From: Lachnospiraceae bacterium
GTDB lineage: Bacteria > Bacillota > Clostridia > Lachnospirales > Lachnospiraceae
Length of the DNA: 64,000 bases
Reading direction: 5' to 3'
Assembly (NCBI GenBank): GCA_017457865.1
Contig: JAFTGN010000075.1
Coordinates: 27,893-91,892 of the forward strand
This document shows positions 12,251 to 59,982 of this stretch, piece after piece. The notes beneath the pieces are model-generated. The model saw only the letters and a list, made by a program, of their open reading frames with translations. It had not been told where the DNA came from and made no database searches. The translations under genes and the position numbers were made by a program. Within the stretch, counting starts at the first letter, position 1. Each line of letters starts with the position of its first letter.

Positions 12251-12471
12251 GACAATTGCGAAACTCACCAAAAACTTTAAGGTGTGCTGGTCAGGAAGGC
12301 AAATATGACTTTTGAAGGCCATTGAAAACGCCGGTACTTGCTTTTTGGAGTGAACAACGAACAAAAAGGTTAGTATCCGTTGCGTTTTCACCTGGCGGAA
12401 GCTTGCCTGAAAAAGCCATATTGCGAACCAAGACAGCACTTCAAGAAAGTGATTGAAGTTTCGCAATTACC
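12251..12471 (-). repeat. PAL-1: long palindromic intergenic repeat
   Basis: A full element with GACAATTGCGAAACT at one end and its inverse at the other. On the minus strand the core reads CAACGGATACTAAC, apical stem CTTTTTG / CAAAAAG, then CAAGTACCGGCGTTTTCA. The outer arms GTGCTG / CAGCAC are specific to this copy. It fills the gap between the RND stop (38 bases away) and the ylmC start (30 bases away). Confidence 0.85.
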
Positions 12472-12509
12472 TATTGCTACTGCTATTTTATGATGGACAA
12501 TTGAAATCG

Positions 12510-15500
12510 TCACATCTGCAAAATCTCCAGGTCTTCTTCACTGACTTTTTTCAGTTCTCTCCGGTTCAGCAGATCGTAAATCACCGGTATGACAAACAGT
12601 GTCATCAAAGTGGCATAGAGCAGACCGCCGATGGTGACGATGGCGATTGGTGCCATCAGATCTGCACCGGAACCGATGCCCATTGCCATAGTCACCAGAC
12701 CCAGTACAGTAGTCAATGCTGTCATCAGAATGGGGCGCATACGGGTCATACCAGCCTCGATGATGGCGGCTTTCTTTTCTGTGCCTTCTAAGCGCAGCTG
12801 ATTGATATAATCTACCAGTACGATACCATTGTTCACCACGATGCCTGCCAGCATGACGAAACCGATCATGGATACCACGCTGATTTCATTGCCGGTCAGA
12901 TACAATCCCAGAAAACCGTCTGTGGCTGCCAGCGGCATGGTAAACAACACGATAAAGGGTGACTTGAAGGACTGGAACTGTGCCACCATAATAAAGTAAA
13001 TGCACAAAATTCCCAGTGCAAGCATCAGCACCAGCTGTTCCATGGCCTCCATAATGGTTTCATTTTCTCCATTGGAGACGATTTCTGTCCCATCGGGCAG
13101 TTCCAGATCGGCCAGTGCATCCTCCACATCCCGGCTCACCAGCCCTACATTGTATCCATCTGCGATTTCTGCTGTCACATTCAGATACCGCTTCTGATCC
13201 ACACGGGAAATGGAAGAAAATGCGGTGGTCTCCTCTATCTGGGCAATATCAGACAGTTTCACGGTACTGGTTTCTCCTGTGGTGCTCTGGGCAGTCAACT
13301 CATAGTCTTCCAAATCCTCTGCTGTCAATGCTTCTTCTCCGTCCATAATCAGCAACGGATACGCATCCCCCGTGTCTGTAATGGTCACAGAAGAAACCGG
13401 TTCCGCAATGCCCCCTGCCAGTCCGGCAAATACCTGTGCCACGGTCAGGTTGTGCTTCATGGCTCCATTTTTATCTACCATCACATGCAATTCCGGACTT
13501 GGGTCTTCGATGCCGTTGAACACATTCTGGGTACCCTCCACCGTGGCAATCCGTTCTGCCACCAGATTTGCGCCTTCCTGCAAGTCTTTCAGATTCTGAG
13601 AACGAATCTCAATGGAAATACCGGAACTGCCCAGTGAGCTCACATCCATGGTAGAGCCGGAAATGGACAGTTCACAATCCAGATCGGCGCAGGCTTCTGT
13701 CATTTCTTTTGCCAGTGTCTGGCTGCTTTCCTTCTTATCTTCTTTTAACAATACATACATGGTCACGGAGCGGCTGCTGGTGCCAAATCCCAGATTGACG
13801 GAATCCAGGGTCGCACCTACCTTATCTACATCCGCAAATGCGGTCAGGCGGCTGATGACTTCATCTGACATGGCGATGGTATCCTCTAACAGAGCCTCTT
13901 CCGGCATGGTCAGGGAAACCGACATCTGGTAACTGTCAGATTCTGGCAGATAGGCAGTACCTCTGCTCATGGCCAGCATAGCACTGAGCACCAGTAATAC
14001 CAGGGAACCCATGAGTACCACCGGTTTCCACTTCAACGCTAAGCGTAACAGTTTCTCATATCCTCCCAGCATTCGATCCATCAGACCCGGTTTCTGCTCT
14101 TTTACATGGGTCAGCATCTGAGAGGCCATCATGGGCACCAGCGTCATCGCCACGATCAAACTGGCCATCAGAGAAAAGGCAATGGTCAGTGCCATATCCT
14201 GAAACAGCTGTCTGGTCATTCCCTCGACAAATACAATAGGAAGAAATACACATACCGTGGTCAAAGTGGATGAGCTAATGGCACCTGCCACCTGTCCGGC
14301 ACCGCTGACTGCTGCCTGTATCCGGTTGGCACCTTTGTTTCGCAATCGATAAATATTCTCTATGACTACCACTGAGTTATCTACCAGCATGCCCACGCCC
14401 ACTGCCAGACCGGACAGGGAGATCAGGTTTAATGTCACACCTGCAAAATACATACACACAATGGCAAAAACCACGCTGACCGGGATAGAGCAGGCAATCA
14501 TAAAAGTAGGCCGGATGTCTTTTAAGAACAACAGCAAAATCAGAATGGCCAGCACGCCGCCCATCAGCAGATTATTCAGTACAGAATCCACCACCATGTC
14601 AATGTAATCTCCCTGATTCATCAGGGTGGTGACGTGTACTCCTTCATATTTTGCTTCAATCTCTTTTGATGCTTTTTCCAGTGCATGTGCCACGTCCGCA
14701 GTGGAATAGGTATTTTGCTTCTGCACCGTAAACATCAGGCCGTCATTGCCATTGACTCTGGCATAAGAATCTCCGGTATTGTCCGTCACATACAGTTCCG
14801 TCACATCAGACAACAGGATGGGATCAATGCCTTCCAGATCCGGGTCAAACAACACCAGATTCTGCAACTCTTCCAGACTTTCAATTTCGTCCCCCACTCG
14901 AAGCAGATAGGATGTACCATCCTCAGAAGACAGATACCCTGCCGGCATACTGAAATGCTGTGCCGTCAGAATGCCTGTGATCAGTTCCGGCGTGATAATG
15001 CCCTCCAATGCCGCCTGCTTCAGTGCCTCTGCCTTTGTCTGGTCAAAATTCTCTAACTGGTTGTTTAGCTCTTTCTCTCCTGCCTGTAACTCTGCAGATG
15101 CAGACTCTAACATGGCGCTTGCTTCATTTAACTGCTGTCTGGTATCCGCTTCCTGATTGTTCAGTGCAGTCTGTCCTTCTCCCACCATGGCACTGCCACT
15201 GTTTAATGCTGCTTCGCCTTCTGCAATAGCAGCAGATGCCTGTGCCAGCTGCGCCCTTGCATCTGCCAGTTGGGCTTTTGTCTGCTCTGCCAGGTTTTCA
15301 GAAGCTGCAAGAGACTGTCTGGTGGACTCGATCATCTGGGTCCGGAGGGCAATCTCCTGTCTGCGCACTTCCAATGTGCCACGTTCTGCGGTCAGTTCTG
15401 CCAGCTGCTGCGCCGCTTCTACTGCCTGGGGATCGTCCATACGGCTTTCTCCATCTGCTCCACCGCCAAATTCTTCTAACTGTGCCATCAGTTCCGCATA

Positions 15501-16475
15501 TCTGGCATCATAGGCGGCCTGTTCTGTGTCATAAGCAGCCTGTAACTGTGCCAGTTCGCTTTCGGATGCCGCAATCTGATTGCGCATTTCTCCATTCTGG
15601 GTGTCTAAATATGCCACCAATGTCTCTAACTGGGGCAGCACATTGGAAAGCTGTGCCAAAATGGTCTTTTGCTGCTGCAAGTCTGCCTGAGACTGGCTCA
15701 TGGCCAGCTCCATTTTCAACAGTTCCATCCTGCCCTGTAAAAAACCCTGATCTGCCTGGATGCTGCCATCCTGCAAAGCAGCCATCTGGCTTTGTAGTTC
15801 TGCTTTTCCTGCATCTAACTGTTCCTTGGCCTCTAACAGCTGTGCCTCTGCTTCTTCTAACTGTGCCTCTATTTTCTTCTGGAGTTTTTGATTGACTTTT
15901 GCGATCTTTTCCTGACTGATGACGATATTTTCTGTCCGTTCGATCAAGCCACTGACCGAAACGCTTGCCACTCCGTCTACCCCTTCCAGATAAGGAGCGA
16001 TCTCCTCTTTCACCAGTGCAGACAATTCTTCCGTGTCATAGTCATCCCCGTCCACTGCCGCCACCATGATCGGCAGCATATCCGGACTGATCTGCATCAT
16101 CACCGGCTTGCCCACGCCCTCTTCCATGGAACCGCTTAGCACATCCAGTTCCTCTCTGGTCTCTAACATAGCCCGGCTCATATCCACACCACTGGAAAAT
16201 TCCAGAATCACCACTGCATAGTTCTGACTGGAAATGGACTGGATCCGCTCCACCTGGTTGACTGTGGCAAGGGCTGCCTCCTGTGGTTTGGTCACATTCT
16301 GTTCCACCTTCTCCGGACTGGCGCCCGGATAAGTGGTCATGACCACCAGATAGGGGAGCGTTAGTTCCGGCAACAGATCCGTGGTCATTCTGGTAAATGC
16401 CACGATCCCCAGCACCAGAATTCCAAGCACTGCCACAATAATCGTATACGGTTTTTTTACACTGAACTTTGCCAT
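12510..16475 (-). CDS. RND-type efflux permease with a 300-residue coiled-coil insertion
   Basis: A 1321-residue RND permease of the AcrB/HAE1 kind, about 280 residues longer than usual. It has an N-terminal membrane helix (8-28), a first porter segment, then a huge Ala/Gln/Glu/Leu-rich heptad region (about residues 186-490) inserted after SVSVSGLIERTENI. The porter domain then resumes with a further helix bundle. The proton-relay helix has GMLVDNSVVVIEN, with Asp-Asn where AcrB has Asp-Asp. The C-terminal half repeats the layout. In a single-membrane cell there is no TolC, and no membrane-fusion protein gene lies beside it, so the coiled coil may act as a built-in extracellular stalk. The ATG at 16475 is preceded by AAGGTGAGG. 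Substrate is unknown. Confidence 0.92.
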   Translation of the reverse strand: MAKFSVKKPYTIIVAVLGILVLGIVAFTRMTTDLLPELTLPYLVVMTTYPGASPEKVEQNVTKPQEAALATVNQVERIQSISSQNYAVVILEFSSGVDMSRAMLETREELDVLSGSMEEGVGKPVMMQISPDMLPIMVAAVDGDDYDTEELSALVKEEIAPYLEGVDGVASVSVSGLIERTENIVISQEKIAKVNQKLQKKIEAQLEEAEAQLLEAKEQLDAGKAELQSQMAALQDGSIQADQGFLQGRMELLKMELAMSQSQADLQQQKTILAQLSNVLPQLETLVAYLDTQNGEMRNQIAASESELAQLQAAYDTEQAAYDARYAELMAQLEEFGGGADGESRMDDPQAVEAAQQLAELTAERGTLEVRRQEIALRTQMIESTRQSLAASENLAEQTKAQLADARAQLAQASAAIAEGEAALNSGSAMVGEGQTALNNQEADTRQQLNEASAMLESASAELQAGEKELNNQLENFDQTKAEALKQAALEGIITPELITGILTAQHFSMPAGYLSSEDGTSYLLRVGDEIESLEELQNLVLFDPDLEGIDPILLSDVTELYVTDNTGDSYARVNGNDGLMFTVQKQNTYSTADVAHALEKASKEIEAKYEGVHVTTLMNQGDYIDMVVDSVLNNLLMGGVLAILILLLFLKDIRPTFMIACSIPVSVVFAIVCMYFAGVTLNLISLSGLAVGVGMLVDNSVVVIENIYRLRNKGANRIQAAVSGAGQVAGAISSSTLTTVCVFLPIVFVEGMTRQLFQDMALTIAFSLMASLIVAMTLVPMMASQMLTHVKEQKPGLMDRMLGGYEKLLRLALKWKPVVLMGSLVLLVLSAMLAMSRGTAYLPESDSYQMSVSLTMPEEALLEDTIAMSDEVISRLTAFADVDKVGATLDSVNLGFGTSSRSVTMYVLLKEDKKESSQTLAKEMTEACADLDCELSISGSTMDVSSLGSSGISIEIRSQNLKDLQEGANLVAERIATVEGTQNVFNGIEDPSPELHVMVDKNGAMKHNLTVAQVFAGLAGGIAEPVSSVTITDTGDAYPLLIMDGEEALTAEDLEDYELTAQSTTGETSTVKLSDIAQIEETTAFSSISRVDQKRYLNVTAEIADGYNVGLVSRDVEDALADLELPDGTEIVSNGENETIMEAMEQLVLMLALGILCIYFIMVAQFQSFKSPFIVLFTMPLAATDGFLGLYLTGNEISVVSMIGFVMLAGIVVNNGIVLVDYINQLRLEGTEKKAAIIEAGMTRMRPILMTALTTVLGLVTMAMGIGSGADLMAPIAIVTIGGLLYATLMTLFVIPVIYDLLNRRELKKVSEEDLEILQM

Positions 16476-16518
16476 ACTGCCTCACCTTCTGCCGACAAGC
16501 GGCATAGATTTTCGATAG

Positions 16519-16558
16519 AAAAAGGAGCGTTCTGAAAGATTCAGAATACACTCCTTTT
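16519..16558 (-). terminator. Terminator after the amidase gene
   Basis: Stem AAAAGGAG...TTCTGAA / TTCAGAA...CTCCTTTT with a small interior mismatch and a four-base loop. On the minus strand it runs into TTTTTC. Confidence 0.8.
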
Positions 16559-16642
16559 ACTGTACCTTGCTTCGTCATACAAAGCAACTATCTTTAGAGA
16601 ATTTTCATATTTTTTCAAAAGATTTTTCTTCTGATTGCCGAC

Positions 16643-17638
16643 TTATTGCGTCAGTGCCGCACCAATGTCTGCTTTCAGCTGCACCCAGGCATCTTCATGT
16701 TCTACATAATACTTTGGGCAGATTTTTCCTGTCACATCATAATGCCGGATCACATTGTCCTGGGTCAATCCGAAGGTCTTGCACAGCCATGCGGTCAGCT
16801 GTACCACTGACTGGTACGTGGCCGGTGTGAACTGTCCTCCCGCATCCGGATGACAGACTTCTATGGAAATGGTGTCTACATTTCGCTGGTTGGTGCAGTA
16901 CGACATCTCATTGAGCGGAATACAGGAGATCACCTCTCCTTCCAGTCCTACGATAAAATGAGAACTGGCTTTGGTCACATGGGTATCTTTCAACCCTTCA
17001 AAGTAACTCCAGTTCTGGTCAGCCGTGGTGCCTGCATTGCCCACATAATGAATGGCGATATACTGGATGCTGTCCATGGCCACACAAGGTCTGGAATAGG
17101 GATTTACCGTCAGAGGACGTACCTCCACCCAGTCCGGCAGTGCCAATGTCTGAATATCCAGAGAAATGCCGCCTGCCGTGGTCATCCAGGTGTTGCCGTA
17201 AAATCCGGCAGATGCGCCTGCATTGGCCTCGTAAAATCCCTCTTCCTGTTCCACCGGAGCATCCTGCTGCTCCTGCAGCTCACGGGCGTCCCAGATTCCC
17301 TGTGTCTGTACCGCTGGCGCCTGGATGACAGCAGCCGCCTCCTCCGTTTCTCCGACCGCCGGCTGCTGTACCTGCCCTGTCTGGCTGTTCTGATGGTTCT
17401 GTGCCGGTACTGCTGTTTCCGGACGATTGTGATTGCCCTGTTTCACCAGAAACAATACCATACACACACTGGCCGCCACAAGCAGAACTGCCTGCGAGCT
17501 TCTTTTTCTCTGCTTTCTGTTTTGCCTCTTCGCCTTTTTGTCCCGCTGGCCTTGCAGAATATTTCGAATCTGGTTTTCAGAAGCCTGTTTCTTTTGCTGC
17601 TGCTGGGCAAAACGTTTGATTCTGTCCTCTCTGTCCAT
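16643..17638 (-). CDS. Membrane-anchored N-acetylmuramoyl-L-alanine amidase (Amidase_2/PGRP fold)
   Basis: A 331-residue protein with a basic cytoplasmic N-terminus, one membrane helix (about 49-66), a Gln/Ala-rich linker to about residue 150, and a C-terminal Amidase_2 domain. The zinc ligands visible are His197 (AIHYVGN), His299 (IRHYDVTGK) and Cys307 (ICP). The domain cuts the bond between muramic acid and L-alanine in peptidoglycan. The anchor should hold it outside the membrane near the wall, so it may work in wall turnover or spore/cell separation. GAGGGGGAG precedes the ATG. It is followed by its own terminator, separating it from the RND gene. Confidence 0.92.
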   Translation of the reverse strand: MDREDRIKRFAQQQQKKQASENQIRNILQGQRDKKAKRQNRKQRKRSSQAVLLVAASVCMVLFLVKQGNHNRPETAVPAQNHQNSQTGQVQQPAVGETEEAAAVIQAPAVQTQGIWDARELQEQQDAPVEQEEGFYEANAGASAGFYGNTWMTTAGGISLDIQTLALPDWVEVRPLTVNPYSRPCVAMDSIQYIAIHYVGNAGTTADQNWSYFEGLKDTHVTKASSHFIVGLEGEVISCIPLNEMSYCTNQRNVDTISIEVCHPDAGGQFTPATYQSVVQLTAWLCKTFGLTQDNVIRHYDVTGKICPKYYVEHEDAWVQLKADIGAALTQ

Positions 17639-17737
17639 TGTTCTCCCCCTCTGGCTCTTTCCTGCTTTTCATTTTTCCTCTTCTGTATGCCCTGTTTTCT
17701 CCCATGCTTTCTATTGTATCAACTTTTGACAGCCTTG

Positions 17738-17765
17738 GCTATACTTTTTGATCATCTTTTGACAA
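17738..17765 (-). promoter_or_regulatory. Possible promoter for the amidase gene
   Basis: Minus strand TTGTCA, 16-base spacer, TATAGC, about 100 bases before the amidase start. The -10 box is imperfect. Confidence 0.4.
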
Positions 17766-17842
17766 AATTGTTCTATTTTATCCACTCTTATTGTAGATAT
17801 CAAGTATCTTCTCTTGTTTCGTGTCTTCCTCTCCGCTTTCTC

Positions 17843-17871
17843 TTTACAATTGGTATTTGCTATACTACAAT
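17843..17871 (+). promoter_or_regulatory. Promoter for gtrA-yfhO
   Basis: TTTACA, 17-base spacer, TACAAT. A second TATAAT at 17955-17960 lacks a good -35 but is nearer the gene. The divergent gap 17639-18005 otherwise shows nothing but low-complexity AT sequence. Confidence 0.55.
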
Positions 17872-18005
17872 AGATTTCAGGTTGTGTAAAGTCATAAATT
17901 TGCAGATTCCTTCGCAAAATTCATAAAAAATCGTATCTTTTACGGAGTTTTTCCAGTATAATAGGAAATGATGCATGGAAATGCATGAATTGGAAAGGGG
18001 TTCTT

Positions 18006-18449
18006 ATGATTCAAAAATTTTTCTCTCATCCTCTGATTCGCAAAGTCGTCAACAGAGAAACCATTAGTTACGTCTTCTGGGGATGTGCCACTACTGTTGT
18101 GAACTGGGGTGTGAACTTTATCGCATATGATCTGCTCCATATTTCGACCTTCTGGTCTACTGTCATTGCATGGCTGGCAGCAGTGATCTTCGCCTTTTTT
18201 GTGAACAAGCTGTTTGTGTTTCACAGCAGATCCTGGCAACCCTCTGTTGTATGGAAAGAGTTTATTCCTTTTATTTCCTGTCGTCTGCTGTCAGGTGTGT
18301 TTGATGTGGCATTTATGGTCATCGCAGTGGATCATCTGCATGTTCCCAATGCATTGGCAAAACTTCTGTCCAATGTATTCGTCATGATTGCCAACTATTT
18401 TGCCAGCAAGTTTTTGATTTTCAGAAAACCCAAAGAACAAAGGAGTTGA
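18006..18449 (+). CDS. GtrA family membrane protein
   Basis: A 147-residue protein with four hydrophobic segments and the GtrA signature region (ETISYVFWGCATTVVNWGVNF near the start; NYFASKFLIFRK at the end). GtrA proteins are thought to help flip polyprenyl-phosphate-linked sugars used in decoration of wall polymers. The ATG at 18006 is chosen because AAAGGGG lies just upstream; an earlier ATG at 17985 has no site. It is followed after seven bases by yfhO. A matching GtrB-like glycosyltransferase is at 22813-23745, which fits a GtrA/GtrB/YfhO glycosylation set. Confidence 0.9.
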   Translation: MIQKFFSHPLIRKVVNRETISYVFWGCATTVVNWGVNFIAYDLLHISTFWSTVIAWLAAVIFAFFVNKLFVFHSRSWQPSVVWKEFIPFISCRLLSGVFDVAFMVIAVDHLHVPNALAKLLSNVFVMIANYFASKFLIFRKPKEQRS

Positions 18450-18456
18450 TAGAAGC

Positions 18457-21171: not shown

Positions 21172-21232
21172 CAATTCAGGCAACATCACTCCAAAAGGAG
21201 TTTGCATCATAATCTTCTTATAATCCATTTTG

Positions 21233-21264
21233 CCGCGGCAAAGCTTTGCTGCTCTTTGCCGCGG
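21233..21264 (+). terminator. Hairpin terminator between yfhO and argH
   Basis: Perfect stem CCGCGGCAAAG / CTTTGCCGCGG followed by TGTTTC. It is placed between the yfhO stop and the argH start and could also attenuate argH. No T-box features are visible. Confidence 0.7.
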
Positions 21265-21302
21265 TGTTTCAAATAACAGGCAGCAAGAAAGAGGTAATCA
21301 AA

Positions 21303-22676: not shown

Positions 22677-22682
22677 GCATGA

Positions 22683-22742
22683 GGCAATTGCGAAACTCCA
22701 GCCACTTTCGTGAAATACTGGACACGTTCACATTTCACAATG
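22683..22742. repeat. PAL-2: short remnant of the palindromic repeat
   Basis: GGCAATTGCGAAACTCC matches the left end of PAL elements and ATTTCACAAT resembles the inverted right end. Almost all of the core is missing, so this looks like an internally deleted copy. Confidence 0.5.
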
Positions 22743-22752
22743 TTTTTATAGC

Positions 22753-22799
22753 AAAAGTCCTGTGGGAAGAATGGTTATTTCCTTCCCACAGGGCTTTTT
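22753..22799. terminator. Bidirectional terminator between argH and the GT2 gene
   Basis: AAAAGTCCTGTGGGAAG and CTTCCCACAGGGCTTTTT form a long stem with T-runs on both strands, placed between convergent genes. Confidence 0.9.
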
Positions 22800-22812
22800 G
22801 ACCATATAATTC

Positions 22813-23745: not shown

Positions 23746-23785
23746 GGTATGCCTCATTTCTATCTTCTGCCTGATTTTCCAAATA

Positions 23786-23958
23786 GGTAATTGCGAAACT
23801 ATAATACCGAACGCTTTTCATCAAAATTTTTATTTGAAAAACACGCTCTCTTGCATCAGAATCATTCTTACGAATGAATCATGCAACGGTACTAACAGTA
23901 CACGGCATTTCACAAAGGTTTTCAAACGAAAAAACTTCTGATGTACAAGTTGCTCACA
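23786..23958 (+). repeat. PAL-3: palindromic repeat with a shortened right arm
   Basis: It starts GGTAATTGCGAAACT, then CCGAACGC, CACGCTCTCTTGCATC, the small hairpin ATCATTCTTACGAATGA, then CAACGGTACTAACAGTACACGGCA. The right arm is degraded and runs to the glmS stop codon at 23959. It shares the type with PAL-5 and PAL-9. Confidence 0.75.
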
Positions 23959-38839: not shown

Positions 38840-39061
38840 ATGAAAAATTTGAGAAAAATTCTTGCCATCGCCGGTCTGGCTGTCATTGCCCTGTTATATA
38901 TTCTATGCATTGTATTTGCCTGCATCGGAAGTGAACTGACCCAGAAGCTGCTGCTCCTCACCATTATGCTGACCATCCTGCTTCCCATCATCATCCATTT
39001 CATCAGTGTGGGCATCAAAAACACTGAGACCGCACTAGGCGAAGAAGGGGAAGAGGAATAA
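38840..39061 (+). CDS. Small two-helix membrane protein, unknown function
   Basis: A 73-residue protein with two hydrophobic segments (about 7-29 and 37-58) and an acidic end (GEEGEEE). AAAAGGAG precedes the ATG with good spacing. No family is recognised. Its stop codon overlaps the outer arm of PAL-4, whose A/T-rich base would end its transcript. The downstream gene, purA, is convergent. Confidence 0.7.
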   Translation: MKNLRKILAIAGLAVIALLYILCIVFACIGSELTQKLLLLTIMLTILLPIIIHFISVGIKNTETALGEEGEEE

Positions 39062-39286
39062 AAAAATCACAGAACTACGATGCAGTGTTTGAAATGATGA
39101 CTACGTGCGCAACATGTCTATCGAAGGCACGCTCTCGCTTCGGTGAAAATGTAGCGGATACTAAGTAATTCTGCGACATAAAGTCTCAGAATTACAAGTA
39201 CCGACATTTTCAAGAGCCTTCTTAAGACATGTTTGCCTTACTTGTCATCATATTCAAATAAGCGAATGATAGTTCTGTGATTTTTT
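39061..39286 (+). repeat. PAL-4: palindromic repeat with terminator-like outer stem
   Basis: The core carries CGCAACATGTCTATCGAAGG, CACGCTCTCGCTTCGG, TAGCGGATACTAA, apical stem GTAATTCTG / CAGAATTAC and AAGTACCGACATTTTCA. The outermost arms (39061-39077 with 39270-39286) pair perfectly over 17 bp and end in TTTTTT. This copy fills the gap between two convergent genes and could terminate both. Confidence 0.9.
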
Positions 39287-39299
39287 ATAATCCTTTATA

Positions 39300-45994: not shown

Positions 45995-46027
45995 AATACT
46001 TCTCCTTATTTCCTTTTTATAATTTCA

Positions 46028-46352
46028 GACAATTGCGAAACTCTTTCATCAAACCATAAAACAGCCTATATATCAGAAATTTTTCATTCAAAAAACTTTG
46101 TGGAACGCCGGTACTTTATTCTCGTTAGCAATGAGTCGGGCTGACAAGCTTGCTTGTCAGTATGACGAATGCCGCGAGTGCCAAATACCCAGTTGCCTGC
46201 AACGGTATATTTGGCATTTTGAGCAGTAAGCGAAAAAATATTAGTACCGCTGCTGTGAACATCATTCTTACGAATGATTCGAAGCGAGAGCGTGTTTTTT
46301 GAATAAAATTTCTGATCAAAGGCGTTCGGTGAAATAGAGTTTCACAATTGCC
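46028..46352 (-). repeat. PAL-5: palindromic repeat with a nested insertion, between purF and purB
   Basis: The termini are GACAATTGCGAAACT and its inverse AGTTTCACAATTGCC. On the minus strand it has CCGAACGCC, CACGCTCTCGCTTCG, hairpin ATCATTCGTAAGAATGAT, CAGCGGTACTAAT and AAAGTACCGGCGTT. About 96 bases (46121-46216) with two further hairpins are inserted at the apex relative to PAL-9. It ends two bases from the purF stop codon and 33 bases before the purB start. Confidence 0.88.
46121..46216. repeat. Nested hairpin-bearing insertion inside PAL-5
   Basis: The segment is absent from the otherwise similar PAL-9. It contains a 9-bp-stem palindrome at 46141-46160 (CTGACAAGC / GCTTGTCAG) and TGCCAAATAC / GTATATTTGGCA at about 46179-46215. 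CTCG and CGAG occur as short inverted ends of the first part. No coding potential is apparent. Confidence 0.65.
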
Positions 46353-46354
46353 AT

Positions 46355-47809: not shown

Positions 47810-47834
47810 GTCAACCTCTCTTTACAGATGTCAA

Positions 47835-47878
47835 GGGGCGACTGCAAGTATTTGATTTTCATGGTTCACAACCGCCCC
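47835..47878 (-). promoter_or_regulatory. Hairpin between purC and purF
   Basis: GGGGCG (47835-47840) pairs with CGCCCC (47873-47878) across a 32-base loop. No T-run adjoins it. It may act as a weak attenuator or RNA-processing site between the genes. Confidence 0.45.
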
Positions 47879-47896
47879 ACCAATTCAAGTGAATGA

Positions 47897-48601: not shown

Positions 48602-48631
48602 GATTCTAATCTCCATTCCGAAGCGTCTGCA

Positions 48632-48728
48632 AAAAGACGGCTGCCAGGAGGCATACCAGTCTGTCAGTCTGTACCGCTTCTCCACAGACTGTCCTTTGTA
48701 AAGTTCCCTGTCAGGGGTATCCTGACAG
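48632..48728 (-). promoter_or_regulatory. Structured leader of purC, possible attenuator or riboswitch
   Basis: Read on the minus strand, three stems follow one another: CTGTCAGG / CCTGACAG (48721-48728 with 48708-48715), CAGTCTGT / ACAGACTG (48684-48691 with 48665-48672), and AGACtGG / CCGTCT (48656-48662 with 48635-48640) followed by TTTTT. CTGACAG recurs after the second stem, so the first left arm could pair with either copy, and AGACTG is shared between stems two and three. It does not match the purine or PRPP riboswitch patterns I know. Confidence 0.5.
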
Positions 48729-48742
48729 CAACGACCATTCGT

Positions 48743-48771
48743 ATTATATAATACCCACACGCACTTTTCAA
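48743..48771 (-). promoter_or_regulatory. Promoter for purC
   Basis: Minus strand TTGAAA, 17-base spacer, perfect TATAAT. It lies in the short gap after addA. Confidence 0.85.
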
Positions 48772-48818
48772 TACCAGAAACCGCCTTATCTTTTCTTTTT
48801 TCTCCAGCAGTTTCTAAT

Positions 48819-51800: not shown

Positions 51801-52799
51801 TGCGGCCTCATGGAGCTGCTGTAATACCTGCTCCGGGGTAGCACTGCAATCCTGTTTCTGTAACCGGGAAATGGACTTTTTGATCCCATCCCGGATGGCT
51901 TTCACCTGCTCGGTCTTGTGCTCATCGCACAGGTCTGTCTTTTTCTTTCTGGGCATCCGGTCAAAAGTCATCTGCAATACCTTCTCCTGCGCCTGTGCGA
52001 AATCCTGCCCTTCACATGCTTCTTCTAACCGCTGCACATCCCCCATGATAGCAGGCAGCAGATAAGCAGGACCATCCGGTTCTTCACATAGGGCCTGCAT
52101 CCTCTGTGCCATGCCAAGGAGTTCTGCCAGTTCCAACTGCATCTGGACAGCGAGAAACTGCATCCACTCTGCCTGCTCCAATTCCTCCCGATCTGTCAGA
52201 GCATAAGCATCCCGACAGGACGCCAGCCATTCTTTGGGCCAGGGATAGCTTCTGGAAAAAGTATCACAGCGCAAAATCAGTTCTCCGATGCCCCCATCGT
52301 CTTTGCCTGTGGCAAAAGTATCCACAAAGTCCAGAAACCCTTCTTCCGGATTGGCATAGTGCCGTTCTAACAGATCTGCCACCACTTCCTGGCGAAGCAG
52401 TTTCAGTTCCCCCTCATCTCCGATCCGGAAAGAGGGATCCAAATCAATCCGGTGAAAATCATTGCGGATCACGTGCAGACAGAAACTGTGAATGGTGGTG
52501 ATCTGGGCATGATGTACCAGCGTCAGCTGGCGAAGCAGATGGGCATGTTCCGGTTGTTCCTCTACCTTTGCTTCAATGGCAGTCCGGATTCGTTCCCGCA
52601 TTTCTGCGGCAGCCGCATTGGTGAAGGTCACGATCAGCAGTTCATCAATATCCACCGGACGCACATCATCCGTAATCAAACCAATGATCCGCTCTACCAG
52701 TACCGCCGTCTTGCCGCTTCCGGCAGCTGCCGACACCAGAATATTTCTGTTTCGCAGAGAAATGACCTGCTGCTGCTCCTTTGTCCATGAAAATCCCAT
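48819..52799 (-). CDS. addA: ATP-dependent helicase/nuclease subunit A
   Basis: AddA is the UvrD-like helicase and 3'-strand nuclease subunit of AddAB, which processes double-strand breaks for RecA. The 1326-residue product has [31 protein letters not shown] (Q motif and Walker A), [18 protein letters not shown], the DEYQDSN Walker [35 protein letters not shown] and [15 protein letters not shown]. The C-terminal nuclease has [15 protein letters not shown] and LLDYKTDR. The ATG at 52799 has AAAGGGG upstream, discarding 29 residues that come from PAL-6. It follows addB but is separated from it by PAL-6. Confidence 0.97.
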
Positions 52800-52818
52800 A
52801 TATTCCCCTTTCTTCTCA

Positions 52819-53062
52819 GGCAATTGTGAAACTTCATCTACTTTCCGAGATGATACCTTCGTACACAATATGTCTTTCGAAGACACGCTCTCGCTTCACG
52901 TCATTCTTACGAATGACTGAAAAGTGCAGCGGACACTAAGTAATTCTGAGCCGTAAAGCCTCAGAATTACAAGTACCGGCATTTTCAAGAGTCTTCTTAA
53001 GACATGTTTGCCTCCCTTCGGCATCATCCTTCCGATACTTTTTTGAAGTTTCACAATGGCCT
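52819..53062 (+). repeat. PAL-6: palindromic repeat between addB and addA
   Basis: The termini are GGCAATTGTGAAACTTC and its inverse GAAGTTTCACAATGGCC. Inside are CACAATATGTCTTTCGAAG, CACGCTCTCGCTTC, hairpin GTCATTCTTACGAATGAC, GCAGCGGACACTAA, apical stem GTAATTCTGAG / CTCAGAATTAC and AAGTACCGGCATTTTCA. It ends 40 bases after the addB stop and leaves 19 bases, just the Shine-Dalgarno region, before the addA start. Confidence 0.9.
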
Positions 53063-53102
53063 GTTTGATATGCATCAATCTATCCTATCTATCACACATC
53101 TG

Positions 53103-56100
53103 TCATTGTTCTTCCCTGATCAAAGCCAGCACTTCTTCTGTGTCCAGGGTCTGTAACTTCCGGTACCGATAGCCCGGTATGCCGGTGTCAAAGCCACAAA
53201 TGCCTTTGTACATGCAGTAATCACATGCGGTCCGGTCTTTGTATGCATATGGATTCACCGGTATCTGCCCGGACAGCATTTCCCTGCACAGATCGGCGGC
53301 TTTTTGCTTGCCATATCCGCAAAGTTGCTGCATTTCCTCTGTAGATGCGGTCATAGAACTGCCTGTAGGTGCACCGGAGGCATCTCTGGTGAGATTTTTC
53401 ACCACCGCTGATTTTTTCCCTTCGGTATGGTCTACCAGTCTGGCAATGTCACTGTCTTTGTTGGTCAGACCGTTCATCCGCAGTTCCTCTAATACGGCAC
53501 TGTCCACTGCCTCTGCAAAGGCTTCTGTGTCCTCCGGCAGAGACGGCTTTTCCACCACCGGATTTTTGATGTTGTAATAATAGACACCTGCCGGTAGAAC
53601 AGCCTTGCCCGGATGGGTGGATGCGGTCAGTTCCATTGCCGCAGATAAATATAAAATCAGCTGTAACTGCAATCCATAGTACAGCCTGGTCAAATCCAGT
53701 ACGGTAGATCCGGACTTGTAATCCACAATCTTCACATACACTTCCTGGTCTTTTTCCACCAGATCCACCCGGTCGATGCGCCCATGCAGCTTCATGGTCA
53801 CCCCCGGACTGACTTCCAGCGCCATGCCCGGTGTATTGTATTCTGCGGAAAATGCCACCTCACTGCCCTTTGGGAAAAAACTGCCTGCCTGTAACTGCTT
53901 CTCCAATGCCCAGATGGTTTTGTCTGTCATCTGTTCCAGGCGGCCTACCAGATAGCGGTATCGGGCAGAACTTTTCAAAATGGTATTGCCATAGGCCTCT
54001 GTGACTTGCCCCACACTTTCCTGTACATATTGGAGCCGGTCTTCCTCTGACAGTTCCTGCCAGGTGACCTGTCTTTCCTGTAACAGACCGAAAAACCGGG
54101 AAATGGCTTCATGGAAAATGTTGCCATAATCTGCTGCGTTTAAGGCATATTCCTGCCGTTCTGACAGGCCCAGTCCATAGGTCAGGAAATGGGCATAGGC
54201 ACAGCCGGAAAAGGTTTCCAGTCGGGTCACACTGTTTAATGGATATTTCCCAAAAATGCGGGCTGACACTTGTGGAGACAGATGTTCCTCTCTGTAAGCC
54301 GCAAACAGTCCATCTAACACATGCTCCAGACGGGTTCTGTACTGAGGTTGTCTGTGATACCAGCCATACAGATCCTGCCACCAGCCATTCTCTTCTCCCT
54401 GTCTGTGTGCCCGTAAGCCTTCCATCAACAGTCCCATACTCTCTTCCGGCTGCCAGATCTGTGCTTCTTTCGACAGGCTGTCCTGGTTGCTTTCCTCTGC
54501 CTGTGGAAACTGCCTGCGGATCCGGTTCACCAGATAGCAGGGGCGCAGGGCTTTTCCGTCACTGCTGACTCCGGACCAGATCAGATACAGCTTTGCCCCG
54601 GGTTTTGTCAGCATCAGATACAGATAATATTGCTCAAAAAAGCCCTCCTCCTTACTGGTGGGTGCCAGTTCGATTTCTGTCTGTTTCAACCACTCTCTGT
54701 CCAGATCGGACAACAATCCATGCTTTCCATTGCCGGCAGGAATCAAACTGTCATTGCATCCAAGGAGAAACAGCACTTCTACACTGTCCAGTCTGGTTCG
54801 CTGTAAATTTCCAATGACCAGTCGGTCAATGGAGGGTGGAATCAGACCTGCCTGTAGATTTTCAAAACCGGACGATAAGATATCCCCATAAGCAGACAGG
54901 GAAAGCACTTCCTCTCCCATCAATCCCACCAGCTCATCCAACAGTCCCATAACCTTGCCAAAGCACTGGCTGTATTCCCTTGCCTGTGCCAATGCACCGG
55001 CTGCCTCAAACCGGTCTGCCTGTGCCTGCAATTGTTCCTCTGCCATACAACCGCATAAAAAACCATACAGCAAGGTGGTGATTTCTCTTACGTCTCTCTT
55101 TTCTGCAAAAGCACGGTCTATGGGAAGAAGCCAGGACATAATCTGTTCCCGCAGGTCATTGAGAGAAGCCAGATGATGCTGATATTTTTCTGCTTCCGGT
55201 GTCCCGCTTCCCTGTATGTTATTTCCCTGTGTTTGACTTCCTGGCATTTCCTGGATTTCACTGCTGCCTGCCCCATTCTGCTGAGATAAAACTTCTCCAC
55301 CAGATGCATCTGTCCATCCACAGATGGGCATGCCCCGGTACACAAATGTCCACTCCTGCTGCCACTTCCAGCCGGAAATGCCCAGTGCCTTCACATAATT
55401 TTCCAGATAGTCCACCTGTCTGCGGGTCAGACCGATCAGGGGATTGCGAAGCAGGCGAAACATAGACTCATAGGTATACTGTTTCTCCACTGCTTCTAAC
55501 ACAGAAGAAATCAGTTCCACCAACGGATTACCGGACAGATTTTTCTTCCGGTCAATGAACACAGGCAGATCTGCCCGGGCAAACCATTTCTCCAGAATGG
55601 GAATATAGGTCTCCATGTCACTGCAAATCACGGCAATCTCCCGATACCGGAACCCCTCCCGGATACAGGCAAGAACCTGGGTCAGTACATACCGCACTTC
55701 CTCCTCCGGATTTTTTGCCTGATGGAGATGAATTGCCTCTGCCGGTGCCGGATATTCCTGTACCGGATGGCGAAACAATCCCTTTTCCAGTGCCCGAAGG
55801 GGTTCTGCCACCGGTCTGGTTTCGTAAATCCGTTCCTCCGGTTTGAGTTCCACATGAGATTTTGTCTCCCGATTGATCCGGTCTGCCATGGCAGTGAGGC
55901 GGGCCACCACCTGCTTACTCATATAAAACAGTTCCTGCTCCCCGGTGATCTTGTAGGGATTTTCATCCGGGTCCATAGTCAATACAACCACCACATCTCT
56001 GCCATACTGCATGAGCAGTTCCAACAGTCCATACTGCACCGGGGTAAAACCGGTAAAACCATCCAGAACAAAAACCGACCGCTGCACTTCCTTTGACTGG

Positions 56101-56666
56101 GGAACCCACTCACTCAAGTGCGGCAGCAGTTCTTCTAATGTAATGACATCCCCTGTCTTCCTCTCTAAAAACTTTGCATAGATCACTTCCAGATCCCGGA
56201 TCTTATGCTGCAACAGAGGCTGGCTGTCCAACTGGTCTGCGATTTCCCGCAACTGTTTTGGCATGACACGATACTGGAGAAATTCAGACAGCATAGACTT
56301 TAACTGCTCAATAAAGCCCTTTCTGGACAGATTTCCCCGATACAGTTCCAGACTGTCTGCCACTTCCCCTGCAATCTTCCGCAGCAGCATGGATTTTCCG
56401 GTGTCATCTAAAATCCCCGGAATGGTCTGGTGCAGTTCCTCCATCACCCGGTAAGCCAGACGGTGGAAACTGACCACATCCACTTGCATCATCCCCAGAT
56501 TGTCCGTCAGCTGGAGTACCTTTTTCTGCGCCACCAGCGTAGACTGCTCCGGTACGATGATCTGCACCCGTAAAGAAGGGTCTGCCTCTGCTTCCTCTAA
56601 AAGCCTGCGATAGATGACCTCTGATTTCAGGGAAATCGAAGAGCCGAACATAAACTGTAGTGCCAT
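53103..56666 (-). CDS. addB: ATP-dependent helicase/deoxyribonuclease subunit B
   Basis: AddB is the Chi-recognising and 5'-strand nuclease partner of AddA. The 1187-residue product has the helicase-like N-terminal region (VQIIVPEQSTLVAQKKVL, VVSFHRLAYRV), RVDLVEKDQEVYVKIVDYKSG in the C-terminal nuclease, and the iron-sulfur staple: FSGCAYAHFL in the middle and ACDYCMYKGICGFD near the end, four cysteines in all. The Walker A region reads GSSISLKSE, with Leu replacing the Gly before Lys, so nucleotide binding may be altered. The ATG at 56666 has GAAAGGGG upstream. PAL-6 separates it from addA, and PAL-7 lies upstream. Confidence 0.95.
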   Translation of the reverse strand: MALQFMFGSSISLKSEVIYRRLLEEAEADPSLRVQIIVPEQSTLVAQKKVLQLTDNLGMMQVDVVSFHRLAYRVMEELHQTIPGILDDTGKSMLLRKIAGEVADSLELYRGNLSRKGFIEQLKSMLSEFLQYRVMPKQLREIADQLDSQPLLQHKIRDLEVIYAKFLERKTGDVITLEELLPHLSEWVPQSKEVQRSVFVLDGFTGFTPVQYGLLELLMQYGRDVVVVLTMDPDENPYKITGEQELFYMSKQVVARLTAMADRINRETKSHVELKPEERIYETRPVAEPLRALEKGLFRHPVQEYPAPAEAIHLHQAKNPEEEVRYVLTQVLACIREGFRYREIAVICSDMETYIPILEKWFARADLPVFIDRKKNLSGNPLVELISSVLEAVEKQYTYESMFRLLRNPLIGLTRRQVDYLENYVKALGISGWKWQQEWTFVYRGMPICGWTDASGGEVLSQQNGAGSSEIQEMPGSQTQGNNIQGSGTPEAEKYQHHLASLNDLREQIMSWLLPIDRAFAEKRDVREITTLLYGFLCGCMAEEQLQAQADRFEAAGALAQAREYSQCFGKVMGLLDELVGLMGEEVLSLSAYGDILSSGFENLQAGLIPPSIDRLVIGNLQRTRLDSVEVLFLLGCNDSLIPAGNGKHGLLSDLDREWLKQTEIELAPTSKEEGFFEQYYLYLMLTKPGAKLYLIWSGVSSDGKALRPCYLVNRIRRQFPQAEESNQDSLSKEAQIWQPEESMGLLMEGLRAHRQGEENGWWQDLYGWYHRQPQYRTRLEHVLDGLFAAYREEHLSPQVSARIFGKYPLNSVTRLETFSGCAYAHFLTYGLGLSERQEYALNAADYGNIFHEAISRFFGLLQERQVTWQELSEEDRLQYVQESVGQVTEAYGNTILKSSARYRYLVGRLEQMTDKTIWALEKQLQAGSFFPKGSEVAFSAEYNTPGMALEVSPGVTMKLHGRIDRVDLVEKDQEVYVKIVDYKSGSTVLDLTRLYYGLQLQLILYLSAAMELTASTHPGKAVLPAGVYYYNIKNPVVEKPSLPEDTEAFAEAVDSAVLEELRMNGLTNKDSDIARLVDHTEGKKSAVVKNLTRDASGAPTGSSMTASTEEMQQLCGYGKQKAADLCREMLSGQIPVNPYAYKDRTACDYCMYKGICGFDTGIPGYRYRKLQTLDTEEVLALIREEQ

Positions 56667-56702
56667 AATGCCCCTTTCTAAATATTGGCAAAACACCATC
56701 CA

Positions 56703-56960
56703 CCCGAACGCCTTTCAGCAAAATTTATATTTATAGGGCAGGTAGGTATCTATACGTACTGCCTGCGTTCGCAATATGTCTTTCGAAGGCACGCTCCCGC
56801 TTCGTGTAGAATGCAACGGCACTAATGTTTTTTATCGTAATATGATATATTACTCAAAAAACAAAGTGCCGGCTTCTACAAGAGCCTTCTTAAGACATAT
56901 TTGCCTTCCTTGCCAGTACGTAGATAGACTTTGCTTTTAGCCCTATAAATATAAATTTTG
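56703..56960 (+). repeat. PAL-7: palindromic repeat with 21-bp perfect outer arms, upstream of addB
   Basis: The arms at 56719-56739 and 56940-56960 pair perfectly (ending TATAGGGC / GCCCTATA). It starts CCCGAACGCC like PAL-3 and PAL-5. The core has CGCAATATGTCTTTCGAAGG, CACGCTCCCGCTTCG and CAACGGCACTAA opposite AAAGTGCCGG, a paired change from the TACTAA / AAGTACC of other copies. It lies between divergent addB and the gene at 57135. The rest of 56961-57134 shows nothing recognisable. Confidence 0.9.
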
Positions 56961-57134
56961 CTATCTCGGCTGTTTCTTGAATGAATCCACCAGTTTTGCC
57001 ATTATCTTATTGAATATGCATCACTGTAAAAGTATCAAATTGTTACAAATATTCTTTCTAACCCTCACACAAACAAGGTATATCTCCACAGGGTCAGGCA
57101 TATTTTGTAGTGAGCCTGATTGGAAAGGGTTTGT

Positions 57135-57584
57135 ATGAGTTCTAAAACCAAAATCCTAATCTTAAAAAAGAAAGAAATCCTTTACACCATTCTCTTTGCC
57201 GCACTGGCTGTTTTGCTGGTGGTTCTGCTGTATTTTATGTTTTTCCGCCCACACACCAGTCCCATGCCCAGAGAAGAAGCAGAAGAATCTTCTGTGACTT
57301 ACATACCGGGCATGTATACTACTTCCATCACACTGGGAGAACAATCTTTGGATGTGGAAGTCACCGTGGATGCAGACCATATCAATTCTGTCCGTCTGGT
57401 AGACCTGACAGATGCAGTGACCACCATGTACCCACTGGTAGAGCCTGCCATCGACAATCTGGCATTGCAGATCATCCAGACCCAGTCACTGGATACCGTT
57501 ACTTACAGTGAAGACACCCGGTATACTTCCACACTGTTACTGGATGCCATCGAAACTGCCCTGTCCAAGGCACAGCGTGAGTAA
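57135..57584 (+). CDS. Membrane-anchored FMN-binding-domain-like protein
   Basis: A 149-residue protein with one N-terminal membrane helix (about 16-38), a short acidic linker, and an exported domain: YIPGMYTTSITLGEQSLDV, then EVTVDADHINSVRLVDLTDA, LALQIIQTQSLDTVTYSEDTRYTS and LLLDAIETAL. The order and spacing resemble the FMN-bind domain of Rnf/Nqr-type proteins. The threonine motif that carries covalent FMN (SGAT) is replaced by SEDTRYTS, so flavinylation is doubtful. The ATG at 57135 has GGAAAGGG upstream. No redox partner adjoins it. Function is unknown. Confidence 0.7.
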   Translation: MSSKTKILILKKKEILYTILFAALAVLLVVLLYFMFFRPHTSPMPREEAEESSVTYIPGMYTTSITLGEQSLDVEVTVDADHINSVRLVDLTDAVTTMYPLVEPAIDNLALQIIQTQSLDTVTYSEDTRYTSTLLLDAIETALSKAQRE

Positions 57585-57594
57585 ACTTCATTTA

Positions 57595-57810
57595 TCATTG
57601 CAAACGGTATGGTTTAATCCAAGTGATGTCTGCGTACGCAACATGTCTTTCGAAGGCACGCTCTCGCTCAGGTGAAAATGCAGCGGATACTAAACTTTTT
57701 GTTCACTTTTCGTTCCAAAAAGTAAGTACCGGCATTTTCAATGGCCTTCTTAAGACATGTTTGCCTTCCTTGACATCACATTTCAGTGACAAGTAACCGT
57801 TTTGCAATGA
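57595..57810 (+). repeat. PAL-8: palindromic repeat between convergent genes
   Basis: The outer arms TCATTGCAAACGGT / ACCGTTTTGCAATGA and the middle arms GTGATGTC / GACATCAC are specific to this copy. The core has CGCAACATGTCTTTCGAAGG, CACGCTCTCGCTCAGG, GCAGCGGATACTAA, apical stem CTTTTTG / CAAAAAG and AAGTACCGGCATTTTCA. It starts ten bases after the 57135 gene's stop and ends one base before the nadE stop. Confidence 0.9.
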
Positions 57811-57811
57811 C

Positions 57812-59743
57812 TCAAAGGTTTTCTATTTCCTTCATCCACAGACGACTGCTGGCATCACTTGGCATACGCAGATCTCCTCTTGGGGAGACTGCCACAGAAC
57901 CCACCTTTGGACCATCCGGCAGACAGGAACGCTTGAACTGCTGTGTGAAGAACCGCCAATAGAAGGTACGAATCCACTTTTTGATGATGTCTTCCTCATA
58001 TTTTCCGGCAAAGGCAAGTTTTGCCATGCGGAATATTTTCTTTGGTGGATACCCAAAACGCAGTACATAATACAGGAAGAAGTCGTGTAGTTCATAAGGG
58101 CCTACCAGATCTTCTGTCTTCTGGGCAATCTTGCCATCTGCATCCGGCGGTAACAATTCCGGGCTGACCGGTGTATCTAATACATCATACAACACGGCAC
58201 TGAGTTCCTTGTCCTCCACTGTATCTGCATAATAACGAACCAGATGACGCACCAGTGTCTTCGGCACAGATGCGTTGACCCCATACATGGACATGTGATC
58301 TCCATTGTAAGTGGCCCAGCCCAGTGCCAGTTCCGACATGTCGCCGGTACCGATGACCATCCCTCCTGTCTGGTTGGCAATGTCCATGAGAATCTGGGTC
58401 CGCTCTCGTGCCTGCCCGTTTTCATAAGTCACGTCATGGATGGATGGGTCATGTCCGATGTCTCTGAAATGCAGATTGACCGCTTCTTTGATGTTCACTT
58501 CCCGCAGCTGTGCCCCTACTCTCTTTGTCATCAGGCAGGCATTCTGGTACGTACGGTCTGTGGTACCAAAGCAAGGCATGGTCACTGCGGTAATGCCGCT
58601 TCTGGGAAGTCCCAGCGCATCAAATGCCCGCACGGTTACCAACAGTGCCAGTGTGGAATCCAGACCGCCGGAAATGCCGATGACCGCCGATTTGCAGCCA
58701 GTGTGCTCTAACCGTTTCTTCAATCCCATGGTCTGAATGGACAGAATCTCCTCACATCGTCTGTCTCTGTTTCCTCTGTCTGCCGGTACAAATGGTGCCG
58801 GGTCAATCTTTCTCTGTAACTGCAACTCCTCCACAGGCAAGTCAAATGGCACCGTCACATACCCTTCCCCTGCCTGAGACAAATCAAATGTTCCCATTCG
58901 CCTGCGCTCACTGCGCAGACGGTCTAAGTCCATATCTGCCAGTATGGTTTCATGGCCCAGAGTGGCAGACTCCGCCAATATGGTACCATTTTCCCCAATG
59001 ATATTATGGCCGGAAAATACCAGATCCTGGGTAGATTCTCCCTCTCCTGCATTGGCGTAAATATAACCGCAGATCAGACGGGCAGACTGCCCTCCGATCA
59101 GATCCCGGCGATAAGCCGCCTTGCCTGTGGTCTCGTCACTGGCTGATGCATTGGCAATAACCGTGGCACCTGCCATGGCGTGCCGGATACTGGGGGGATT
59201 GGGGGTCCATACGTCTTCGCAGATCTCACAGCCAATCACCAGCTCCGGTATCTGCCGACAGGAAAATAACAGATTGCTTCCCATTGGTACTTCATAGGAA
59301 CTTCCATCTGCCCCTGTCAGTGTAACTGACACAGGTGTCTCATTTCCCTTAGAAAAATATCGCTGCTCATAAAACTCCCCATAGTTTGGAAGAAACGTCT
59401 TGGTCACCAGTCCCAACACCTTTCCACCAGACAATACGGCTGCCACATTGTACAGTCTGCTGCTTCGCTCAAAAGGCAGGCCAATCACTGCCACAACGCC
59501 CAACTCCCGGATGTCCTCTGCCAGTTCCATCATCATCTCCGATGCCTTGTCAATCATGGGACTTTGCAAAAACAAATCATTACAGGTATATCCTGTCAGA
59601 CACAGTTCCGGGCACACGATCACCTTCGCCCCCTGTCCGGCTGCTTCTGTGATCACATGCAATACCTGCTCCTTGTTGTATACCGGGTCTGCCACCTGAA
59701 TCTTAGGAGTGGCAGCTGCCACTCGAATAAAATGATCTTTCAT
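57812..59743 (-). CDS. nadE: Glutamine-dependent NAD+ synthetase
   Basis: NadE amidates nicotinic acid adenine dinucleotide to NAD+. The 643-residue product is the long form with its own glutaminase. The N-terminal nitrilase-like domain has the catalytic Glu/Lys/Cys triad in segments VIAEAAG..VCPELCLTGYT, TKTFLPNYGEFYEQRYF and IGCEICEDVWTP. The C-terminal synthetase has the PP-loop GISGGLDSTLALLV, TGDMSELALGWATYNGDH and KRSCLPDGPKVGSVAVSPRGD. GAAAGGA precedes the ATG at 59743; the longer frame is PAL-9 sequence. PAL elements lie immediately on both sides of the gene. Confidence 0.98.
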   Translation of the reverse strand: MKDHFIRVAAATPKIQVADPVYNKEQVLHVITEAAGQGAKVIVCPELCLTGYTCNDLFLQSPMIDKASEMMMELAEDIRELGVVAVIGLPFERSSRLYNVAAVLSGGKVLGLVTKTFLPNYGEFYEQRYFSKGNETPVSVTLTGADGSSYEVPMGSNLLFSCRQIPELVIGCEICEDVWTPNPPSIRHAMAGATVIANASASDETTGKAAYRRDLIGGQSARLICGYIYANAGEGESTQDLVFSGHNIIGENGTILAESATLGHETILADMDLDRLRSERRRMGTFDLSQAGEGYVTVPFDLPVEELQLQRKIDPAPFVPADRGNRDRRCEEILSIQTMGLKKRLEHTGCKSAVIGISGGLDSTLALLVTVRAFDALGLPRSGITAVTMPCFGTTDRTYQNACLMTKRVGAQLREVNIKEAVNLHFRDIGHDPSIHDVTYENGQARERTQILMDIANQTGGMVIGTGDMSELALGWATYNGDHMSMYGVNASVPKTLVRHLVRYYADTVEDKELSAVLYDVLDTPVSPELLPPDADGKIAQKTEDLVGPYELHDFFLYYVLRFGYPPKKIFRMAKLAFAGKYEEDIIKKWIRTFYWRFFTQQFKRSCLPDGPKVGSVAVSPRGDLRMPSDASSRLWMKEIENL

Positions 59744-59761
59744 ATTGTTTCCTTTCTCATA

Positions 59762-59982
59762 GGCAATCGCAAAACGATGACAACGAACGTTCTTCAACAA
59801 AATTTTATAAAAAACACGCTCCCGCTTTGAATCATTCGTAAGAATGATGTCCACAGCAGCGGTACTAATATTTTTTCGCTTACTGCTCAAAAATAAAGTA
59901 CCGGCGTTCCACAAAGTTTTTTTTATGAAAAATTTTGTTGTGCGAACTGTTTTGTGATTTTATCAAAACTTTTCGCAATTGC
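59762..59982 (+). repeat. PAL-9: palindromic repeat between the 62298 lipoprotein gene and nadE
   Basis: The termini are GGCAATCGCAAAAC and its inverse TTTTCGCAATTGCC. Inside are CGAACGTTCTT, CACGCTCCCGCTTTG, hairpin ATCATTCGTAAGAATGAT, CAGCGGTACTAAT, apical A/T stem and AAAGTACCGGCGTT. It ends at the TAG stop of the lipoprotein gene and leaves 18 bases before the nadE start. Confidence 0.9.

Follow-up and report, generated by a model that had tools for sequence, protein, structure and literature searches.

Dispersed imperfect palindromes with a conserved bulged hairpin core in Lachnospiraceae, probably a non-autonomous MITE-like element

The long palindromes in a 64,000-nucleotide stretch of a Lachnospiraceae genome (the window) belong to a dispersed palindromic family, and all nine items described here (PAL-1 to PAL-9) are among its members. 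We consider it probable that the palindromes represent a non-autonomous MITE-like element defined by its conserved core, a bulged hairpin; this reading includes a repair route by which copies would be altered at fixed chromosomal sites.

Eight imperfect palindromes and one remnant are present in the window where the initial annotation had placed them. Their extents were set by hand from the printed sequence; the eight palindromes measure 160-328 bp, instead of the 170-325 bp given at first, and the remnant measures 60 bp. Type A includes PAL-1 (12249..12473(-), core 12318-12409) with TAGR...YCTA ends, PAL-6 (52817..53063(+), core 52880-52992), which has the opposite orientation at the corresponding site of the sister species G002, and PAL-8 (57595..57810(+), core 57653-57745), whose ends are diverged. 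PAL-4 (39061..39290(+)) has a type A core (39124-39217) within a different outer stem. Type B includes PAL-3 (23784..23943(+)), with a decayed core and a lost right end, for which the G002 site is without the element, PAL-5 (46026..46353(-), core 46095-46298), which harbors a nested structured module of about 115 nt, is decayed in G002 and is absent in the same-genus species G001, and PAL-9 (59760..59985(+), core 59811-59917), which is found in G002 with the same orientation. By eye, PAL-7 (56683..57004(+), core 56786-56885) is a hybrid with outer arms of type B and inner arms of type A. PAL-2 (22683..22742(+)) is the remnant without a core; its 300-bp site is 96% identical in G002. The shared modules described initially were borne out apart from the outer stem of PAL-4 and PAL-1, in which CAAGCTTCCGCCA replaces CACGCTCTCGCTT. 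The outermost TAG of PAL-9 (59983-59985) is the stop codon of an adjoining open reading frame (59983-62331(-)). The GC content of the nine items is 0.34-0.45, compared to 0.455 for the whole window. Ten neighbors scanned by domain were ordinary chromosomal genes (AcrB-type transporter, argininosuccinate lyase, glycosyl transferase, glutamine amidotransferases, PurA, PurB, AddB, NAD synthase, and a solute-binding protein).

The repeat family proposed in the initial annotation extends far beyond the window, as many further copies were detected in the genome by three approaches. Searches by blastn with PAL-8 and with one type B copy each yielded 42 matches in the window's genome (G000; 40 candidates scored in each case), and the terminal motif was matched 233 times, versus seven times for the reversed control. 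With a core covariance model (R1; 94 positions, 28 pairs), trained on 40 copies of this genome including six from the window, 90 cores were detected in the 2.61-Mb genome. Within the window, six of the eight cores were recovered with E values of 1e-9 or better, all six being part of the training set; PAL-5 with its inserted module reached an E value of 0.018, PAL-3 was missed, and neither is among the 90 cores. Independent support for the family is provided by the copies in the rest of the genome. A pattern of box, core, and partner derived from the window copies matched six times in the window and was absent from 100 simulated windows with the same dinucleotide frequencies. Chance hairpins were rejected based on these pattern-free simulations, the many copies genome-wide, and the terminal motif count far above its reversed control. 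Contigs C24, C46, C49, and C104 of this genome end inside elements, indicating that the family breaks assemblies and that the copy count is a lower bound. The cores are located between called genes, many of them near gene ends, according to a simple codon-score gene caller; frames containing a core were left out of the calls.

The core strand starts with the outer arm, a one-sided CACGCTYYCGCTT, a stem, an A[AG] bulge, CGG, an optional single A, YACT, and AA, followed by a variable terminal hairpin, A, AGTRCCG, the stem, and the second outer arm. The conserved one-sided unpaired parts are the CACGCTYTCGCTT box and the A[AG] bulge, while the stems vary freely with compensation. This persistence of the unpaired parts while the stems change suggests that the unpaired parts are under selection. 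In the window's genome, two types of outer arms occur, as well as hybrids recognized by eye; certain copies carry an extra module within the terminal hairpin, and others are devoid of the core or of one arm. Several type B copies (PAL-5, window 46026-46353, and loci L003, L073, L074, and L078) harbor the module of about 115 nt (GCCAAATAT...ATATTTGGC plus a second stem) within their terminal hairpin, an arrangement resembling the entry of one palindrome into another. Two other genera have some copies in which the 5' arm, together with the whole or a part of its one-sided box, is tandemly repeated two or three times (L048 2961-3190, L040 393-700, L049 2638-2750, L050 1830-1937).

To assess the fold, 30 copies of about 20 genomes were aligned (A4). 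Pairing was found in 90.7% of 475 cells, and both sides vary in 12 of 16 pairs. The covariation score was 0.490, compared to 0.177 ± 0.014 in shuffled alignments and at most 0.172 when the alignment was slid, whereas the number of further pair types did not exceed that of the shuffles (28 versus 26.1; reached by 124 of 500 shuffles). The structured module suggested in the initial annotation is thus supported across genera by a conserved fold with covariation and by conserved unpaired parts. Template switching can correct quasi-palindromes, and the stem complementarity might be a product of such correction in ordinary decaying repeat DNA, with no selection on structure. The best local arm alignments in other genera, in which 87% of the aligned positions pair although the arm sequences differ, would agree with this explanation, as would the roughly equal share of G-U pairs in folds of both strands (see below). 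However, neither the one-sided box nor the A[AG] bulge would survive template switching, whereas the bulge A and most box positions are invariant across the 30 divergent rows, which makes this explanation very unlikely.

Evidence for insertion was obtained in the genus of the window's genome. The own-genome copies with TAGRCAATTGCGAAAC inverted-repeat ends comprise 66 bounded copies of 70-439 bp, of which 27 are flanked by an 11-bp repeat (9 of 11 positions or better), in contrast to 1.9% (~2%) of mismatched pairings. The commonest register of these repeats combines TAGR...YCTA ends with an 11-bp duplication. An empty site with one target copy was identified in G002 opposite a core-less insertion of about 80 bp in L075. 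The absences of PAL-3 in G002 and of PAL-5 in G001 do not leave a clean single-copy target. For the tests of gene context, arm pairing, and strict flank repeats, 74 own-genome matches were reduced by hand to 64 by removing three copies of G002, six duplicates, and one match at a contig edge. In the strict test, which combines flank repeat and end, six of 55 own-genus copies passed (null 0/110). Within this genus, the inverted repeats at the ends, the 11-bp repeats in the flanks, and the empty site thus substantiate the non-autonomous mobile element considered initially. Outside the genus, none of 126 copies passed the strict test (135 copies minus seven duplicates and two with short flanks; null 1/250), and the end motif was found in eight of 128 copies (six of 29 in G049 and two of five in G059; 0 of 2560 in shuffled flanks), so that mobility outside the genus is indicated mainly by the copy number. 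One copy in G059 (L141) shows a flank repeat of about 10 bp by eye.

No transposase gene seems to be part of the element, whose 60-440 bp are too short for one. No transposase with matching ends was found at ten loci with unpaired ends, where only half elements are located. No convincing IS4-type partner (DDE_Tnp_1) emerged among 11 hits in six genomes. Single end-like matches (at most two mismatches) occur at several DDE_Tnp_1 loci at about chance frequency. L236 alone has a two-mismatch end match on each strand, which is about chance level for 11 letters; the left end match is at most 130 bp from the transposase profile match. According to the preferred reading of a MITE-like element, insertion generates an 11-bp target duplication between TAGRCAATTGCGAAAC inverted repeats, as observed in this genus. 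The combination of these inverted repeats with the duplication implies that a transposase acting in trans would have to move the copies.

Changes at fixed sites were studied at 13 sites with a core in both the window's genome and G002, a sample biased to doubly occupied sites. The orientation is the same at 11 sites and inverted at two, PAL-6 and PAL-4, although G002 is a draft genome of 74% completeness and 4% contamination, so that mis-assembly may underlie these inversions and the swaps described below. PAL-6 is inverted in place with both flanks present; PAL-4 is tentatively regarded as inverted, the G002 contig stopping within the element. The core is nearly the same at seven of the 13 sites (0-6 differences) and belongs to a different subfamily at six (17-37 core differences). 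At these six sites, 11 of the 12 flanks were alignable and 88-98% identical; one was cut by a contig end. In the comparison of L012 and L241, the core and the right arm match whereas the two left arms differ in type, and the switch points are located in the end and in the one-sided box. The swaps fit ectopic repair between copies; whole-element swaps might alternatively have arisen from an ancestral pair of which different members were lost. In the proposed mechanism of the MITE-like element, the inserted long palindrome would extrude as a hairpin or cruciform and then be cut, as suggested by the general behavior of long palindromes, and the cut palindrome may be repaired from dispersed copies or close in the opposite orientation. 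Extrusion, cutting, and repair would result in arm swap, subfamily replacement, and inversion at fixed sites, the outcomes seen in the draft genomes. The unpaired parts most likely serve as a folded-strand signal for the mobilizing or processing enzyme.

The distribution of the core was determined by several searches, for which stricter filters and 10 to 43 scored candidates per genome were used when more than 40 genomes were covered, so that the counts of these wide searches are lower bounds. Of 98 relatives, counting the window's own genome, 25 had an R1 match; these 25 are all members of the same family, which contributed 60 genomes, and the 38 genomes from other families of the order gave no match. 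Two other genomes of the same genus were included, one with at least 43 copies and G001 with no R1 match. In a sample of the Lachnospiraceae, the core was found in at least 96 of 299 genera (14 candidates scored per genome). A sample of 398 genomes of the phylum contained at least four with a core (10 candidates scored per genome), namely the window's own genome, two of the same family, and one outside (G695). The latter, from a different family, has a single core match (C2:106772-106866, E 2e-6), which may be the result of transfer, contamination, or chance. A laxer search revealed 74, 57, 32, 27, 20, 16, and 15 copies in seven genera. The exact core pattern was found in 14 stretches in named genomes assigned to Lachnospiraceae, Clostridiales, Butyrivibrio, or an uncultured bacterium, several of them from deer. 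Cargo of plasmids, phages, or viruses was rejected, as no matches were obtained in a plasmid query with one type B copy, in a query of phage records with PAL-8, and in a comparison of one exact pattern with viral contigs.

Outside the genus, all 26 core pairs within 1.4 kb are convergent (eight genomes, 12 pairs in one of them), which is not explained by the direction of the flanking genes and which counts in favor of the preferred reading. Among the 90 cores of the window's genome, three close pairs occur; unlike in other genera, two are same-strand and one is convergent, which counts against the preferred reading. In L049 (1960-2555), short repeats (ACGAGYAAAAATCAGAGATTC...AAATCCACTGC) occupy part of the gap between two convergent cores. 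The consistent convergence might be explained if the core were a folded single-strand DNA recombination site, comparable to attC or the end hairpins of IS200/IS605, with the convergent doublet as the mobile unit. Such a site would also be in line with the conserved extrahelical bases next to variable stems and terminal hairpins, with the about equal G-U share on both strands, and with in-place inversion and exchange at shared sites. In integrons, attC sites are imperfect palindromes with conserved extrahelical bases and a free stem sequence, and the core resembles them in these features and in the variable terminal structure. However, the ten window neighbors are ordinary chromosomal genes rather than cassettes, and Y1 transposition and attC recombination make no target duplications, which are present in the own genus. 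Since, in addition, 76 of 128 copies outside the genus are single and the own-genome pairs are mostly same-strand, we regard a single-strand recombination site as unlikely. A similar comparison applies to REP/REPIN sequences, which form inverted hairpin pairs with bulged hairpins. The palindromes share bulged hairpins with them and may, in the convergent pairs of other genera, also share the inverted hairpin pair as a unit, but the cores of about 80-125 nt are part of longer hairpins, and the 11-bp target duplications in the own genus differ from the lack of duplication in transposition by the Y1-type RAYT transposases.

The main rival to a folded-strand signal is a role of the transcribed hairpin at the 3' ends of genes. 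According to this explanation, the core is a structured RNA acting in 3' UTRs, where it would, for instance, block exonucleases, recruit a processing enzyme (e.g., RNase III), or bind a host protein, with transposition being secondary. Of the 126 copies outside the genus that have a called upstream gene, 79 are located downstream of a same-strand gene versus 47 (p 0.0055), and the distance from the called stop to the core start is 30-80 nt for 51 of the 79. The bias to same-strand genes would not be expected of a purely selfish DNA signal and thus counts against the preferred reading. By genome, G032 (9:1) and the mixed set (38:19) show a clear bias, G049 (15:11) and G012 (9:5) a weak one. It is absent in G053 (8 same, 11 opposite) and in the window's genome (29 same, 26 opposite), and this absence argues against an RNA function. 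Likewise, the inversion of PAL-6, the convergence of pairs whatever the gene direction, and the lack of a match in the same-genus species G001 speak against it, whereas the conserved one-sided parts and the covariation speak for an RNA. According to PMC10969869, MITE transcripts form stable stem-loops and QMITE2 is mostly located in 3' UTRs, which would also be in accordance with this explanation.

Wobble pairs bear on the same question. Own-genome arm mismatches on the core strand comprise 73 G-U versus 35 A-C (one unparsed copy of 64 left out), an excess that favors RNA. The excess is weak in other genera (79 versus 61), and A4 gave 8 versus 3 in 28 rows (its other two rows, with at least five unpaired cells, were left out). 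In core stem P2, by comparison, A-C exceeds G-U in other genera (31 versus 7; one unparsed copy of 128 left out), with similar counts in the own genome (10 versus 7); as judged from the printed rows, the A-C excess looks to be driven by one subfamily of G049. In minimum-energy folds, the G-U shares on the two strands are nearly equal (5.3% and 4.8% in other genera, 3.1% and 3.8% in the own genome) and lower than in nine tRNAs (15.8%), although one TwoAYGGAY RNA is equally low (1.9%). The wobble-pair tests conflict, an action of the core as RNA stays a prediction, and we consider the 3' UTR function rather unlikely. The initial annotation had named an Rfam match as evidence against novelty. None was obtained over the elements in the window or in eight loci of other genera with Rfam release 15; the window gave no match at gathering thresholds, and lax thresholds yielded nothing plausible over the elements. 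The lax window candidates STnc560, mir-3118, mir-1540, and sR3 were rejected because they fall outside the elements, and CsrC in L052 of another genus because it reached 25 bits with a cut-off of 61 and is confined to the terminal hairpin. A TwoAYGGAY RNA (RF01731, 102 bits) is located in L042 of another genus (1135-1298(-)), about 200 nt 3' of the core.

No earlier description of the palindrome family was found in the literature as judged by titles, subscription papers and supplements of structured-RNA surveys being beyond reach, and a search by sequence words led to a single unrelated plant paper. BOX elements of Streptococcus pneumoniae have a modular build and, by description, resemble the palindromes in this respect, but occur in another taxon. 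ERIC has a length of 127 bp and a TA duplication of 2 bp, and to our knowledge, it is one of few bacterial MITE-like families spanning many genera. The palindromes, compared by description, share with it the long imperfect intergenic palindrome and the family-wide spread, in a different taxon. In PMC10969869, ERIC is described as a long imperfect intergenic palindrome present in tens to hundreds of copies across Enterobacteriaceae and Vibrionaceae, and MITEs are characterized as short intergenic elements with terminal inverted repeats, direct repeats at younger copies, many copies, and stem-loops. The general features of the prokaryotic MITEs QMITE2 of Coxiella, Correia/NEMIS, and RUP are common to the palindrome family. 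The own-genome copies agree with the length limit for MITEs (<500 bp, terminal inverted repeats of about 4-30 bp), and the elements are AT-rich and intergenic; direct repeats, expected at younger copies, were detected in the own genus and, by the strict test, not in other genera. Unlike MITEs, the palindromes generate an 11-bp duplication, no parent IS was found, the core occurs in about one-third of the sampled genera, and arms and ends are exchanged.

Tentatively, the core could constitute a folded nucleic-acid signal of a new class that is conserved across a bacterial family and would serve a non-autonomous element with interchangeable arms and ends as its recognition hairpin. The convergent doublets would then represent the complete, transposon-like state with bulged hairpins at both ends, and the enzyme moving them would be one so far not connected to such signals; we regard this possibility as rather unlikely. 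The palindrome family is worth annotating, as its members may otherwise be mistaken for terminators or regulatory RNA. It represents a natural system to watch inversion, arm swap, and replacement at fixed chromosomal sites. About one-third of the genera sampled from a large gut family have the single bulged hairpin core in common, with up to 90 copies per genome, which raises the testable question of which protein reads the conserved bulges.
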